From assembly GCA_020350825.1 (NCBI GenBank), contig CP070724.1:1179972-1243971 (forward strand): a stretch of 64,000 bases of DNA. The letters run 5' to 3'. Below are positions 15,493 through 22,402 of this stretch, piece by piece (positions within the stretch are counted from its first letter, which is position 1; each line of letters begins with the position of its first letter). Both the position numbers and the translations under genes were made by a program. This stretch comes from Thermoplasmatales archaeon. Lineage in GTDB: Archaea > Thermoplasmatota > E2 > DHVEG-1. Below the pieces are notes generated by a model. The model was not told where the DNA came from. It made no database searches and was given only the letters and a program-made list of their open reading frames with translations.

Positions 15493-15799
15493 TTCATTGA
15501 AACTGAGACCGACTCGTTAATACCTGCACTACTTTTTTTTCTTTTTTTAATTCTACGTTGTAATTGGTAATGAAATCAATATAGAATAGAATTAGAAACG
15601 ATAAAAGGCCTAATTTGTCTGACATTTCTGGTACTTGTTGCCGCATTTTATTTAAATACTTTACTATGCTGATATTAAGATAACATCTTAGCTAGAACTT
15701 TATGTGATATATTTTACCTTTGAATACTTTCAATCATCCCTTTATTAGTTTTATTAGAGCAAATATCCTTCTCAATGACCTACATTATTTTATGGGGGA
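15493..15799. other. Intergenic stretch before the repair cassette
   Basis: No gene seen. It holds a double T-run near its left end and an A/T-rich TATA-like TTTATTTAAATAC near 15647-15659, which may drive the downstream cassette with a long leader. Confidence 0.5.
15533..15548 (+). terminator. Oligo-T terminator after the lipoprotein gene
   Basis: Eight T, one C and seven T, 40 bases after the stop codon. Oligo-T tracts on the coding strand are the common intrinsic terminator in archaea. Confidence 0.5.
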
Positions 15800-15802
15800 A
15801 TG

Positions 15803-16528
15803 ATGTTGAAATCTGATGCTATTAAAAGGTCCTCTCTTGAGCCAAAATCTTTAGCGAAACTTGATATAATTGTTCAATCCGGGATTATCGAATTAGACGC
15901 TTTGCTTGGCGGATTCAAAGCAGGCGAGATTACATATATCAGTGGTGACAGTAGTCTAATATCTGAGATTCCTAATCAACTTTGTGTCAATACCTATAGA
16001 ACATTCAACAGTTCAACAATTTATATCGACGGCGGGATTTGTGCAGATCCTTACAAAATTGCAAAATATGCCCGCATTATGGAAATCGACCAAGATGATG
16101 TACTTAACAATGTTCATATCAGTAGAGCGTTCACCGTTTATCAACTATCAACATTTATTAATCACTCACTTGAAAAAGAAATCGAAAAGCATGATCCGCG
16201 AACTCTTATCATAGGGAAGTTTCCCTCCCTCTTTCTTGACCGTGATGTTCCTCCCCAGGAATCTCAGATTATTTTAAAGAACATTATCATAAAACTTCAT
16301 GAGCTCACTACAGAATATAATCTCATCACTGTTCTCACAAATCTTGATAGTAGACTGTATTCAAATCGAATCAGAAGTATTATTCAATCACATGTTCATG
16401 AAACGGTCAAAATGAAATATATTGAACCTTGCACCTATGTTGACCTCACCAGGAGACAGGAGAGCACTACGATTCTTCACATGGCCGAGGGGCAACTACG
16501 ATTAGAGCATTTTGGGATGGTGACCTAA
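15803..16528 (+). CDS. RecA/RadA-superfamily pseudo-ATPase of a PolB cassette
   Basis: About 241 residues. The overall layout follows a RadA/RadB core (GIIELDALLGGFKAGEITYISG at the entry), but the Walker A loop reads GDSSLISE with no GK(S/T), and the Walker B region reads TLIIGKFPSLF with Gly where Asp is expected. ATP hydrolysis is therefore unlikely; a scaffold or DNA-recruitment role is more probable. Starts at 15803 or TTG 15806 behind GGGGG (the ATG at 15800 is too close to it). Its stop abuts the next ATG, and three more genes follow without gaps. The arrangement recalls ImuA beside error-prone polymerases in bacteria (analogy only). Confidence 0.7.
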   Translation: MLKSDAIKRSSLEPKSLAKLDIIVQSGIIELDALLGGFKAGEITYISGDSSLISEIPNQLCVNTYRTFNSSTIYIDGGICADPYKIAKYARIMEIDQDDVLNNVHISRAFTVYQLSTFINHSLEKEIEKHDPRTLIIGKFPSLFLDRDVPPQESQIILKNIIIKLHELTTEYNLITVLTNLDSRLYSNRIRSIIQSHVHETVKMKYIEPCTYVDLTRRQESTTILHMAEGQLRLEHFGMVT

Positions 16529-16783
16529 ATGGGTCGTACAGTGCCTTCTTTTAGAATGGTCATCGAGAGTTTCGGTGTTGAATGGAGTGAGTTCAAACGG
16601 GCTCTCCGAGACATCGACAAAGAATCCTTTGAATGTCTTATGAATTACGCTCGCCGTCATGCCGAGGCAGGGACAAACATGCCTAACCCCAATCCGTTTG
16701 AACCAATTATTATGTCAATCCTTATTGAACATGAAAAGGAATTAAGGAAGATTCGAGAGAATGCTAAGGGGACACATTCTTGA
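16529..16783 (+). CDS. Small helical protein of the PolB cassette
   Basis: 84 residues, predicted mainly helical, beginning MGRTVPSFRM. I recognise this opening from short archaeal proteins that accompany B2-type polymerases, but I know of no biochemical function. The start touches the stop of the pseudo-RecA gene, and the last 23 bases overlap the polymerase gene, which implies translational coupling and stoichiometric production. It may be a small subunit or adaptor of the polymerase. Confidence 0.65.
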   Translation: MGRTVPSFRMVIESFGVEWSEFKRALRDIDKESFECLMNYARRHAEAGTNMPNPNPFEPIIMSILIEHEKELRKIRENAKGTHS

Positions 16784-19025
16784 CACCTATGTTGACCACA
16801 AGAAAAATGTGCTGATAACATGGCTTATTAATAACGGAAAGACGAGCAGAATCGAGGACAAGTTTGAACCATCATTTTATGTTTATTCCTCTCAAAACAG
16901 TCTCTTCAAACTGGTATCAGATTTACAGGATATACCTCAAGTGAAATACCTTAATTTCACTCAGCACAATATCATGTTGGGTTCTGAGAAGAAATATCTT
17001 GTTCTTGAAGTCATTCCAAAAACTCTCGCCTCGTTTAACAGGCTGGCATCAATGATTGATAAATGGGGAAAATATCGAACATATAGATTGTATAATGTAG
17101 ACATTCGTATTCCAACAAGGTATCTGCAACATAAGAGAGTATTCTGTAATGCTAGAGTAAAATGGGACGGGAAACAGTATATTTTAGAGGATGACCAATG
17201 GGCAATAGATTATCTATTTCCTGAGTTCAAAGAACTTTATTTCAACGTTGAAAAAAAGACAGGATTTCAATCATTAAGTGACCCACTCACAGCAATATAT
17301 GTTGATGGAAATATTATTGAAGAAGATAACGAGACAGATATTTTACTCACTGCGGTAAAACAAATCAGAGAGAAAGACCCAGATATTATCTATACAATTG
17401 AGGGAGACAGCTTCTTACTCCCTTACCTGTATCACCGAGCTAAAGAATGCAATATCAGTAGAGAGATCAACCTTGGAAGAGATAAAACTCAGAGAAAACG
17501 ACCTGTAAAACAAGCTAAATCATATTTCAGTTATGGGCAGATTGTTTATCGACCAGCGTTTTTTACACTCATGGGAAGAGCACATATTGATCGGAATAGT
17601 TCGTTTTTATATGGTGAGAGCGGTCTAAGAGGATTGGTTGATATTTCTAGGTGTGCCAACATCCCATTGCAGCTTCAATCTCGTTTAGGTCCTGGCACTG
17701 CTATTAGTCAGATCCAAGTCAATAGAGCAATGGATAAAGGGTATCTCATCCCTTGGAAGAAAAACATGCCTGAAAAATGTAAAACAGCTCGGCAGTTGTT
17801 AATATCGGATAGAGGCGGTCTTATTCTCAGTCCTTCTGTGGGACTCCATGACAACGTTGTTGAACTAGATTTTGCATCTCTTTATCCTAATGTTATGTTT
17901 CGTTTCAATATCAGCCCTGAGACCATGCTATGTAATTGCTGCCTTGATTCACATATTCGTGTTCCTCAACTTGATTATCACATCTGTTATCGTAAAACAG
18001 GATTGCTTCCAGAAGTACTTAGACCAATTATACACAGAAGATTCTGTTTTAAAGCACGAGCAAAGAACAAGAAATATGATCCTATAATATGTAAGGAAAT
18101 CCAACAAGCATGGAAATGGATTCTCATTGTCTGCTTTGGATATACAGGATATAGAAACGCTCGGTTCGGACGTATTGAATGTCATGAGTCAATTACCGCA
18201 TTTGCGCGTGACATCCTCCTAAAAGCAATTGAGGTGGCAGAGCAAGCGGGATATCGAGTTCTGCATGGAATCATCGACTCTCTCTGGATAACAACAATTA
18301 AGGACGATGTCGATCCCTATAAATTATCGAGAATGATTAGCAAACGTACTGGGATTCGGATGGATGTTGAAGGACGATATAAGTGGATTGTGTTTCTTCC
18401 AAGTAAACAATTTGATGTTGGTGCCTTAAACAGATACTATGGATTATTTGACAACGGGGAATTAAAAGTACGAGGTATTGAGCTCCGTCAACGAAATACT
18501 CCTGAATTTTTACGGGATGTTCAACAAAATATGTTAAATGTACTGCAAAAAGCAAATAACGCAAAAGAATTTTATGATCTAATTCCTCAAGCTGTTGAGG
18601 CGCTACTTGATATTGGAAAACAACTTATTGACGGTAAAATAGAATCAAATAAACTTGTTTTTAAAAACCGAATTTCAAGGTATGTTACAGAATACAAAGT
18701 GAATAACCTTGTGAAATCAGCATTGCTTCAACTACGAGACCTTGATATTCGTGTGGAACCAGGGCAATATGTTCAATATGTTGTTACAGATGAACATTCC
18801 AGAAACTATAAGGATCGGGTTTGTGTCATTGAATCTCTTAATGGAAATGAACAGATTGATATTGATTACTATCTACGACAAATTGCTAAATGTGGGGAGA
18901 GCGTCCTTGTCCCTTTTGGTTATACCTTGGAGAATCTTGAATTTATGCTCCAGCAAAAAAAACGTGGAGAGAATATGTATGGATCCATTTTACAGAGAGT
19001 TCGAACTAACCAAACCTGTTTCTAA
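16761..19025 (+). CDS. B-family DNA polymerase of the aPolB2 (altered-motif) type
   Basis: 754 residues with the fold order of family B polymerases but degraded motifs. Motif A is intact (ELDFASLYP, D370). Motif B keeps K452 but the usual N-S is I456-V457 and Tyr is F459. Motif C reads HGIIDSLW, so the first Asp of DTD is I504 while D506 remains. Exonuclease motifs are lost (NVEK for DIE; EGDSFLLPYL for the ExoII segment). A Cys/His cluster (CNCC...H...C, about 394-412) may bind zinc. These are the traits of the archaeal clade described as inactivated PolB2, some members of which have since been reported active in mutagenic synthesis. Embedded in a tight cassette with a pseudo-RecA and a nuclease. 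Confidence 0.85.
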   Translation: MLRGHILDTYVDHKKNVLITWLINNGKTSRIEDKFEPSFYVYSSQNSLFKLVSDLQDIPQVKYLNFTQHNIMLGSEKKYLVLEVIPKTLASFNRLASMIDKWGKYRTYRLYNVDIRIPTRYLQHKRVFCNARVKWDGKQYILEDDQWAIDYLFPEFKELYFNVEKKTGFQSLSDPLTAIYVDGNIIEEDNETDILLTAVKQIREKDPDIIYTIEGDSFLLPYLYHRAKECNISREINLGRDKTQRKRPVKQAKSYFSYGQIVYRPAFFTLMGRAHIDRNSSFLYGESGLRGLVDISRCANIPLQLQSRLGPGTAISQIQVNRAMDKGYLIPWKKNMPEKCKTARQLLISDRGGLILSPSVGLHDNVVELDFASLYPNVMFRFNISPETMLCNCCLDSHIRVPQLDYHICYRKTGLLPEVLRPIIHRRFCFKARAKNKKYDPIICKEIQQAWKWILIVCFGYTGYRNARFGRIECHESITAFARDILLKAIEVAEQAGYRVLHGIIDSLWITTIKDDVDPYKLSRMISKRTGIRMDVEGRYKWIVFLPSKQFDVGALNRYYGLFDNGELKVRGIELRQRNTPEFLRDVQQNMLNVLQKANNAKEFYDLIPQAVEALLDIGKQLIDGKIESNKLVFKNRISRYVTEYKVNNLVKSALLQLRDLDIRVEPGQYVQYVVTDEHSRNYKDRVCVIESLNGNEQIDIDYYLRQIAKCGESVLVPFGYTLENLEFMLQQKKRGENMYGSILQRVRTNQTCF

Positions 19026-19416
19026 TTACTTCATTAATCAAGGCTACAAGGTCATAAAAGAGATAAGAATTGGATATTGCAGAGCAGATCTTGTAGCATT
19101 TAATGAGGATAGGGTAATTGCAATTGAAATCAAATTGAGCGATAGAAAAAAAGCTATTATCCAAGCTAAAAACTATCAACTTGGTGCTGATTACGTATAC
19201 CTTGTTTTTCCTCTTATGAAATCCTATTCCCTTTTAAGAAAATCTGAATATACTCTTCAAAAAGAGGGAATTGGGTTGTTGATTGTTAACGAAATAACCT
19301 GTAAAGTAAGTAAGATTATTGATGCAAAACCATCTAAAAGAAAATTTGCTTCGATCACTCTAAAGGAAATAAGACGGTCACGAGAAAATATAGCAAATAA
19401 GTTCAAGTTTTATTAA
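18979..19416 (+). CDS. PD-(D/E)xK nuclease-like protein of the PolB cassette
   Basis: 145 residues from ATG 18979, which lies within the end of the polymerase gene behind GTGGAGAG. The core holds the restriction-endonuclease-like set: D in CRADLVAF, E-x-K in AIEIKLS and the following Gln/Lys helix (AIIQAKNYQLGADYVYLVF). No other domain is present. It probably cuts or trims DNA, or recognises a damage structure. The 47-base overlap with the polymerase gene argues for a shared complex. Confidence 0.75.
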   Translation: MDPFYREFELTKPVSNYFINQGYKVIKEIRIGYCRADLVAFNEDRVIAIEIKLSDRKKAIIQAKNYQLGADYVYLVFPLMKSYSLLRKSEYTLQKEGIGLLIVNEITCKVSKIIDAKPSKRKFASITLKEIRRSRENIANKFKFY

Positions 19417-19442
19417 GGAGAACATGCTTTAGGTATTATCAT

Positions 19443-20183
19443 ATGTGTTATAGATATTCGATACATAGCAATGCAATGGTCATCGAATCAAGATTTGATG
19501 CTCTATTTCAAAATAATTATGAAAAGAAATATCATGTTGGTGCATTTGATCAAACTCAATTACCTGTTGTTACTAATGAAAATCCAAAACAAATACAATT
19601 TTACAAATGGGGGCTTATCCCCTTTTGGGTAAAAACTTTGAAGCAAGCAGATGAAATAAAAGAGAGAACAGTCAATGCACGGGCAGAAAACATTTATGAA
19701 AAACCCGCGTTCCGTCAATCAGCTGAGAATAAACACTGTCTTGTAATTGCAGATGGTTTTTTTGAATGGAGATACTTCCAAGGAAGAAACTATCCATACT
19801 ACATTCGATTAAAATCTCATGAGCCATTTGCAATAGCAGGACTTTGGGATTGTTGGGTTAATAAAGAAATAGAGAGAAAAATGTATACATATACGATAAT
19901 TACCTGCCCTGCGAATTCTCTATTGGAAAAAATCCATAACAAAAAGAAAAGAATGCCAGTAATTCTTCCAAAAGAACTAGAAAAATTCTGGATTGACAAT
20001 ACCTTTACAAAGGAGCAAGCACAAAAAGTTTTAGTACCATTTGAACAAGATAAAATGGAGGCATATACCATTTCTCGTCTAATTACATCAAAAACTCAAA
20101 ATCCAAATGTCCCAGAAGTTATGAATCCATATAAATATCCAGAACTAGAAGAATCAAATTTAGCTCAGTCAAGTCTATTCTAA
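19443..20183 (+). CDS. SRAP-domain protein (HMCES/YedK family)
   Basis: 246 residues with the complete SRAP active site: C2 directly after Met (MCYRYS), N78 in VNARAEN, E108 in DGFFEW, and H165 in IHNKKKRMPVIL. Family members crosslink through Cys2 to abasic sites in single-stranded DNA and shield them from cleavage and error-prone bypass. The KKK insertion before RMPVIL is a form I associate with Bacteroidota proteins, so transfer from bacteria is possible. It follows the nuclease gene by 26 bases on the same strand, linking abasic-site protection to the polymerase cassette. Confidence 0.92.
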   Translation: MCYRYSIHSNAMVIESRFDALFQNNYEKKYHVGAFDQTQLPVVTNENPKQIQFYKWGLIPFWVKTLKQADEIKERTVNARAENIYEKPAFRQSAENKHCLVIADGFFEWRYFQGRNYPYYIRLKSHEPFAIAGLWDCWVNKEIERKMYTYTIITCPANSLLEKIHNKKKRMPVILPKELEKFWIDNTFTKEQAQKVLVPFEQDKMEAYTISRLITSKTQNPNVPEVMNPYKYPELEESNLAQSSLF

Positions 20184-21233
20184 TATTTCTACAACTGTTT
20201 TTTCCCCTAGATATTCAGAAGCAGTCATTACTTTCTTATCCATCTCAACTGCTGTATCCCAGATTTTCTTGGTATGATCCCTGAATTTACTCTCTCTGGT
20301 TAGGTGGTGATCATAAATAATAATATCTGCATCGATTTCTCTGATTATCCTCGCTGTGTTTTCAATTGTTCTCTCAAGATTAATTCTATTAAGTATGTAT
20401 CCAAACAAATATGTTGTAGGTCCATCAAGAAAAAGAATCGAAGGATTTTCCTTGATTATTAAATCAGCATAATCCTCAATCATAGGGCCACTAAGATCTG
20501 ATGAATGGAATAATTTCTTATTTCCATATTCAATAATTGTTGCTAAAACCCAACCAACTCCAGCATATTCGATACCATGGAAAAGAGGTTTTGTGAATTT
20601 CAATTTGGTATCTCCAAATTTAAAGGTTTTCCCTTCTGGAAATATGACCTGTATGTTATCAGATTTTATTTCTGGCAATTGTTCATAAGATAGCCATTTC
20701 TTAGCGTGTTTCTTAAACCGTTTCCTTCCCTTACTTAGAACTTCTTTCCTTCTTTCATTATATGATTTAAAATCTTTTGAAGCAGCATGAGGGATGTCAT
20801 TAAGAGGATCGTGATATTCTGTTTTTTTTTGTTTTTTCAAAAGTTTCTCTTTTTCATCGATTTCAAATTCCTTGAAAATATCATTTAAAAATTTTTCTCC
20901 TCTCTCTCGTTGGTTATTATTAATGTATTCGTTAGGGTTTTTTGCAAATACAGTTTTCCCCCGATAGACATTGAAATCATCTGGGAAATAATGATCATAA
21001 TGATAATGAGAGATTGTAATAATGTCTGCTTTTTGACACGCTTCTTTAATCTTGTTTTCAGCAATTGCAAGCCATTCTGCTTTTTGTTCAGGTAAAGCTG
21101 GGAAAGATGGTTGCATTATTGCTACTCCTGGATCAATAACTATGGTTATATCTGGAGTATTCACAAGAGTAGATGTAGATTTTGCCCCCATTGAATCGAA
21201 CCAGAGAGGTTGAAATTCAAGATGCTTCTTCAT
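20175..21233 (-). CDS. Metallo-beta-lactamase-fold protein, UPF0282 family
   Basis: 352 residues with the metal site HYHYDHY in the first third, an upstream strand ITIVIDPG, a later His (FHGIEYAG), and Asp in FHSSDLSGP. The layout and length fit the archaeal UPF0282 family of uncharacterised metallo-hydrolases. It contains a long charged helical insert (about 95-185). Convergent with the SRAP gene, with nine bases of overlap at the 3' ends. Function unknown. Confidence 0.8.
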   Translation of the reverse strand: MKKHLEFQPLWFDSMGAKSTSTLVNTPDITIVIDPGVAIMQPSFPALPEQKAEWLAIAENKIKEACQKADIITISHYHYDHYFPDDFNVYRGKTVFAKNPNEYINNNQRERGEKFLNDIFKEFEIDEKEKLLKKQKKTEYHDPLNDIPHAASKDFKSYNERRKEVLSKGRKRFKKHAKKWLSYEQLPEIKSDNIQVIFPEGKTFKFGDTKLKFTKPLFHGIEYAGVGWVLATIIEYGNKKLFHSSDLSGPMIEDYADLIIKENPSILFLDGPTTYLFGYILNRINLERTIENTARIIREIDADIIIYDHHLTRESKFRDHTKKIWDTAVEMDKKVMTASEYLGEKTVVEILE

Positions 21234-21865: not shown

Positions 21866-22402
21866 TTAGTAAATGTCCCAAGAATCCAAAACTTTTTCAT
21901 GTATTTTTAGTGATTTTGAATCATAAAGAACGAATCGTACCAAATTAATTTCTGGGATTTTCTTCAATTCATTTGCTACAGTCTCTATGGCAATTTTCGC
22001 AGCTTCCTCTAATGGATAGCCAAAATATCCTGTACTCAACGCTGGGAAAGAAATGCTTTTGATCTTGTTTTCTTTGGCAAGTCTCAGGCTTTTAATATAA
22101 CATGAGGCAAGTTTTTCTGAATCTTTAGGCGAGTTAGAGTATATTGGACCAACTGTATGTATAATATAAGGGGCAGAAAGATTGTATCCCTTGGTTATCT
22201 TTGCTTCCCCTGTTTTACATCCTTTTAGTTTCTTGCATTCTTCCCATAGCGCTGGTCCTGCAGCTCTGTGTATTGCTCCTGCTACTCCGCCTCCTGGGGC
22301 CATTCTCTTGTTTGCCGCATTTACTATGGCACCTGTTTTCTGCTTGGTTATATCTCCTATGATTAGTTCTAAAAATGATTCCCCAATTTTTATCTTTTCC
22401 AT
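21866..22402 (-). CDS. Macrodomain ADP-ribose hydrolase
   Basis: 178 residues forming a single MacroD-type macrodomain: GDITKQKTGAIVNAANKRMAPGGGVAGAIHRAAG at the start, the GEAKITKGYNL segment, and ISFPALSTGYFGYP for the phosphate loop. Such proteins remove ADP-ribose from proteins or nucleic acids or deacetylate O-acetyl-ADP-ribose. Monocistronic. Confidence 0.9.
   Translation of the reverse strand: MEKIKIGESFLELIIGDITKQKTGAIVNAANKRMAPGGGVAGAIHRAAGPALWEECKKLKGCKTGEAKITKGYNLSAPYIIHTVGPIYSNSPKDSEKLASCYIKSLRLAKENKIKSISFPALSTGYFGYPLEEAAKIAIETVANELKKIPEINLVRFVLYDSKSLKIHEKVLDSWDIY

Follow-up and report, generated by a model that had tools for sequence, protein, structure and literature searches.

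The window analysed here is a 64,000-nucleotide stretch of a Thermoplasmatales archaeon genome (contig CP070724.1 of assembly GCA_020350825.1), and our subject is a cassette of five genes that run head to tail on its + strand from position 15800 to 20183. The first gene (iRadA, 15800-16528, + strand, starting ATG ATG with the second ATG at 15803) encodes a RadA/Rad51 homologue stripped of its ATPase motifs (Pfam Rad51, 9.1e-10), and is followed without a gap (0 bp) by the open reading frame (ORF) of a small helical, arCOG07300-like partner (PPB2, 16529-16783, + strand). This overlaps by 23 bp the gene for a B-family DNA polymerase (PolB2, 16761-19025, + strand, Pfam DNA_pol_B 6e-34), which in turn overlaps by 47 bp the gene for a PD-(D/E)xK nuclease (NUC, 18979-19416, + strand), and after a gap of 26 bp the cassette ends with a SRAP gene of the YedK/HMCES family (19443-20183, + strand, Pfam 6.8e-57). 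The intergenic spacing is thus 0, -23, -47 and +26 bp, and ORF calls confirm the tight packing that the first-pass annotation of this DNA had reported, with family searches in agreement. Upstream lies a promoter element, AATACTTTC (15723-15731, + strand), 17 nt 5' of a TATA-like stretch (15749-15758). Counts of sigma-70-type promoters and intrinsic terminators were not above shuffled expectation. A single-query contig scan recovered only one relative. The cassette recurs in relatives from the same family and so is not a chance arrangement.

The first three genes form a recognisable core. In alignments, PolB2 carries IIDS in place of DTDS in motif C, keeps the Asp of motif A and has degraded exonuclease motifs (compared with P. 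abyssi PolB), while iRadA, set against a true RadA, has lost the Lys/Thr of Walker A and the Asp of Walker B. The 84-aa PPB2 has no family match in Pfam or NCBIfam and begins with MGRTVPSF; MGRT or a close variant opens nearly all full-length relatives, and is given as the PPB2 signature in PMC11791011. The C-terminus of iRadA (GQLRLEHFGMVT, 16490-16525, + strand) is PCNA-binding-like, since GQLRLEHFG fits QxxLxxF when judged by eye; similar tails end most relatives, and clamp motifs in iRadA have been noted previously (PMC11791011). Adjacency on one strand, replacement of the first Asp of DxD, the decayed exonuclease, the RadA without ATPase motifs and the MGRT arm together mark the core as one of the PolB2 mutasome type. 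Makarova (PMC4104785) had described such an association of PolB2 with arCOG07300 and an inactivated RadA in 2014, and in 2025 Timinskas named PPB2 and iRadA and modelled a heteropentameric mutasome (PMC11791011). The damage-tolerance (mutasome) reading put forward in the first-pass annotation fits all our findings, but is not a new one. In Sulfolobus, PolB2 (Dpo2) is damage-induced and performs mutagenic translesion synthesis (TLS; PMC7390963, PMC8764526, PMC11791011), and other groups have shown that it extends mispaired or lesion-bearing ends. The core most likely works as published, PolB2 being positioned on PCNA by iRadA and the PPB2 arm and extending ends that bear lesions. Internal stops in the PolB2 matches of some relatives probably arose where the alignment continued beyond the actual end of the gene and entered the one that overlaps or follows it. 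In G041 (equivalent to CP070712.1), polB2 is split in two (loci L045 and L046): the C-terminal half is found together with NUC and SRAP, and the N-terminal half, next to iRadA and PPB2, lies ~64 kb away in opposite orientation; both breakpoints carry runs of N, and the split may be an inversion, a misassembly or masking. In G026, a canonical radA with an intact Walker A lies ~0.6 kb 3' of PolB2-NUC (L044:2598-3548).

The first-pass annotation had listed the nuclease but made nothing of it; NUC turned out to be the more PolB2-specific partner. Its AlphaFold2 model (pLDDT 92.4) has fold matches in the PDB to XisH, AF2093, SfsA and Hjc, and D37, E50 and K52 are invariant across 22 relatives, so that both the fold and the D...ExK active site are those of a PD-(D/E)xK nuclease; no convincing PDB relative was found at the sequence level. 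A profile built from nine NUC sequences scored strongly in 11 genomes of the class, all of which have PolB2 (a genome was taken to have PolB2 on its profile score, and a few genes that are partial or split were included). Among 390 genomes of the phylum, strong matches were found in 22/85 genomes with PolB2 versus 0/305 without (p=3e-16), and 7 of the 8 weak matches also fell in PolB2-positive genomes; outside the family, the figures for strong matches were 11/66 versus 0/279. Because all 22 strong matches fall in genomes with PolB2, NUC is, on this genome distribution, a more PolB2-dedicated partner than SRAP. It follows PolB2 in eight loci and separates PPB2 from PolB2 in another (L037), whereas in G027 PPB2-NUC forms an operon of its own, apart from iRadA-PolB2-SRAP. 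The word 'nuclease' (as a word start) is absent from the main texts of PMC4104785 and PMC11791011.

NUC was compared with two known nuclease families and assigned to neither. It matches the sce7726-like family NF033832 at 1e-9, but with 39.5 bits against a curated cut-off of 70, and the published sce7726 literature is uninformative. The window protein has no match to PF06319 (MmcB), while two of the 22 relatives have weak ones (best 0.0024). MmcB is an SOS-regulated PD-(D/E)xK endonuclease of Caulobacter, and a proposed partner of TLS polymerases on crosslinks (PMC9578287). By analogy it would be the nearest precedent for NUC, as a small PD-(D/E)xK nuclease tied to mutagenic TLS, although NUC is archaeal and sits in a B-family rather than a DnaE2 cassette; the parallel is functional only, since membership of the MmcB family is not supported.

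The SRAP protein contains the whole domain and keeps Cys2, Asn78, Glu108 and His165 when aligned with PDB 2f20 and the HMCES and YedK chains, which places it with YedK/HMCES, and by analogy with that family it can be expected to cap abasic sites in single-stranded template. In the family, SRAP is present in 17/19 genomes with PolB2 versus 1/26 without (p=3e-9). Across 80 genomes of the class, 24 have PolB2, 22 have SRAP and 20 have both, i.e. SRAP occurs in 20/24 PolB2-positive versus 2/56 PolB2-negative genomes (p=6e-13). The gene adjoins the cassette in many relatives, which together with this genome-wide co-occurrence refutes the possibility that it is adjacent in none, raised with the neighbourhood check that the first-pass annotation had suggested. 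It may lie 3' of NUC, 3' of PolB2, 5' on the same strand or divergently, and the link of SRAP with PolB2 thus outlasts rearrangement; in G043, G047 and G051 the operon reaches a contig end, so that adjacency cannot be judged. The coupling itself, which the first-pass annotation did not know to be described, is not new: PMC11791011 reports an enrichment of SRAP and DUF72 genes around polB2, that of SRAP in bacteria as well as archaea.

Many SRAPs of the family, including the one in the window (QSSLF, 20166-20180, + strand), end after a variable linker in a clamp-binding-like Q-x-x-L-F/L, and this tail is an addition to what SRAP otherwise shares with YedK and HMCES, as is its place in a PolB2 operon. 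The tail was rejected as a cassette-specific feature, as it is also present in SRAPs away from polB2. Several SRAP genes have further neighbours: HhH-GPD glycosylase and Orc1/Cdc6 genes lie 3' in G042 (L031) and G040 (L032), with genes resembling the primase small subunit and GINS beyond them, and an exonuclease III-type gene lies 3' in G012 (L030). At two loci of one genus (L055 and L059), a small conserved ORF (MTTFG.RVKNAWK.IYPLQE...KKK) is found between the promoter element and SRAP.

SRAP also bears on a rival explanation, in which only iRadA, PPB2 and PolB2 make up the machine, while NUC and SRAP are repair proteins in their own right that belong to the same regulon and occupy the same operon by chance. 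SRAP is often located elsewhere, in some relatives under its own promoter with the element, and is often present in other families of the phylum, including f24, where PolB2 is lacking; this frequency without PolB2 makes SRAP a partner rather than a dedicated subunit, and, like its own promoters, gives no support to the abasic-site shielding which the first-pass annotation had regarded as built in. For NUC the case is different, as strong matches never occur without PolB2 and the gene stays with PPB2 where the cassette splits, while the gene overlaps suggest translational coupling. We consider this rival unlikely, though it deserves some weight.

The promoter element connects these genes beyond their adjacency. 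With the consensus [A/T]ATACTT[T/C]C, it was found in all 17 readable operon promoters of the family as AATACTTTC (15 exact, 2 with one mismatch), followed after 17 nt by an AT-rich TATA-like stretch; under a simple density model, 15 exact matches out of 17 have a chance probability of ~3e-29. The element with its 17-nt spacing is likewise found 5' of the PPB2-NUC operon that stands apart in G027, and at the SRAP gene's own promoter in G046, G047 and G048. A uvrA site in G038 prompted us to survey the family, and [A/T]ATACTT[T/C]C was found 5' of uvrA in 15/28 genomes with a readable upstream region (chance ~5e-19, again under a simple density model); in genus g23 (G044, G045, G046, G048, G050 and G051) the sequence 17 nt 3' of it is less TATA-like. 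As uvrA belongs to the same candidate regulon without being part of the mutasome, this also favours the view of NUC and SRAP as independent repair proteins. In Sulfolobus, Orc1-2 binds a damage-response hexamer, ANTTTC (PMC9738581), which is likewise found 5' of repair-gene promoters; the ACTTTC core of our element fits this hexamer, albeit with a longer conserved core and in a different archaeal phylum. The shared element lends indirect support to co-transcription and a response to damage.

The element was rejected as specific to repair genes, since AATACTTTC is also found 5' of a DUF1858 gene, toxin-antitoxin-like genes, an operon for a small cysteine-rich protein and a kinase-like protein, and others. 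The latter operon occurs in four genomes (L231, L234, L240 and L246), where the element is followed by a small cysteine-rich (CxxC) protein gene and then the kinase-like gene (MFIIKFGGSVITDK...). At six further loci (L230, L239, L243, L245, L249 and L267), the element is followed by a conserved leader, GGGGGACATGCCAGC...GCTGGCATTTCTGCCA, which could form a hairpin and matches nothing in Rfam. Given these sites outside repair genes, we treat the putative damage regulon as a hypothesis.

The distribution of the cassette is patchy, PolB2 homologues occur on haloarchaeal plasmids, and some of the other element sites adjoin integrase-like or toxin-antitoxin-like genes, all of which could point to a defence or mobile-element module, whose polymerase, nuclease and SRAP would counter invading DNA or form part of an integrated element. 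Flanking genes of the window (among them those encoding metallo-beta-lactamase-fold, coiled-coil and macrodomain proteins) recur however beside the cassette in several relatives, pointing towards vertical inheritance, PolB2, SRAP, NUC and iRadA show correlated pairwise distances (r 0.67-0.90), and uvrA has the same promoter element, and with these findings we regard such a module as very improbable. Four haloarchaeal plasmid loci with PolB2 contain no annotated nuclease, and among them a single SRAP gene was seen, ~5 kb away; no plasmid homologue of NUC was found. In G020, from the same genus as the window, PolB2 and SRAP are absent and the promoter element and the 5' part of iRadA are retained, and from the sequence the cassette is judged to have been lost as a unit. 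The scar (L235, G020:C1:805000-808450, minus strand) consists of the element and sequence corresponding to residues 11-94 of iRadA, beyond which the DNA is unrelated.

From these comparisons we predict, with fair though not full confidence, that the five genes function as a damage-inducible translesion cassette of the known PolB2 type, to which a nuclease and a protein protecting abasic sites have been added. Upon damage, an activator would bind at AATACTTTC, 5' of the TATA box, and switch on transcription; here the promoter architecture is observed and control by damage is our suggestion. iRadA, a PPB2 trimer and PolB2 would then assemble as in the published model, for which the motifs are present in the window proteins, with the MGRT arm and the iRadA tail seating PolB2 on PCNA at the stalled primer end, and PolB2 would extend mispaired or lesion-bearing ends in the manner of Sulfolobus Dpo2. 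SRAP, possibly tethered via its QSSLF tail, may covalently cap abasic sites in single-stranded template as other members of its family do, creating a choice between shielding and bypass, while NUC could cut damaged or branched DNA to provide a gap for filling by the mutasome, as proposed for MmcB and TLS polymerases.

Several observations count against this prediction. NUC is missing from 8/19 family genomes with PolB2, and its homologues outside the family are more diverged and do not adjoin polB2; in about half of the family loci, some of which lie at contig ends, SRAP is either absent or cannot be placed next to the cassette, and elsewhere in the phylum it is common in genomes that lack PolB2; the window genome's own uvrA lacks the element, which is also found 5' of genes without a known repair role. 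Most genomes are incomplete metagenome-assembled genomes, and the Fisher and binomial p values ignore phylogeny.

To our knowledge, little is known of the control of DNA-damage tolerance in archaea beyond the Sulfolobales and haloarchaea. A more specific version of our reading, which we put forward tentatively as a possibility that falls short of being probable, is that NUC is a dedicated mutasome subunit, MmcB-like in function, and that mutasome, SRAP and uvrA form one damage regulon through [A/T]ATACTTTC 17 nt before the TATA box, related to the Sulfolobus damage-response element (DDRE), so that mutagenic synthesis, abasic-site capping and excision repair would be switched on jointly. The PolB2-restricted nuclease, and an element common to mutasome, SRAP, PPB2-NUC and uvrA promoters, would then represent a candidate for a new subunit of the mutasome and a candidate regulon, and archaeal PolB2 and bacterial DnaE2 systems would run in parallel, each apparently having drawn in a PD-(D/E)xK nuclease.

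Compared with the published PolB2 (Dpo2) mutasome, the cassette is alike in gene content, iRadA-PPB2-PolB2 order, the MGRT arm, the loss of the motif C Asp, inactive exonuclease and RadA ATPase sites, an iRadA tail that looks PIP-like (PCNA-interacting peptide) by eye and the neighbourhood enrichment of SRAP. It differs in the nuclease gene overlapping polB2, in the SRAP gene ending the operon and in the 9-bp promoter element shared in relatives with SRAP, PPB2-NUC and uvrA. The searched passages of the mutasome papers hold no mention of the NUC overlap or the promoter element, whereas the SRAP link is already there; the core including this link is thus published, and the predicted NUC partnership and the element are a refinement. 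The cassette resembles ImuA-ImuB-DnaE2 in its way of working, in that a damage-linked polymerase is accompanied by a RecA-like protein and by an accessory subunit, but it contains no C-family polymerase or ImuB-type Y-family protein and is not a member of that system.

Downstream of the cassette, a metallo-beta-lactamase-fold gene (20175-21233, - strand) is convergent with SRAP and overlaps it by 9 bp, and a macrodomain gene (21866-22402, - strand) lies nearby and recurs near the cassette in relative L030.

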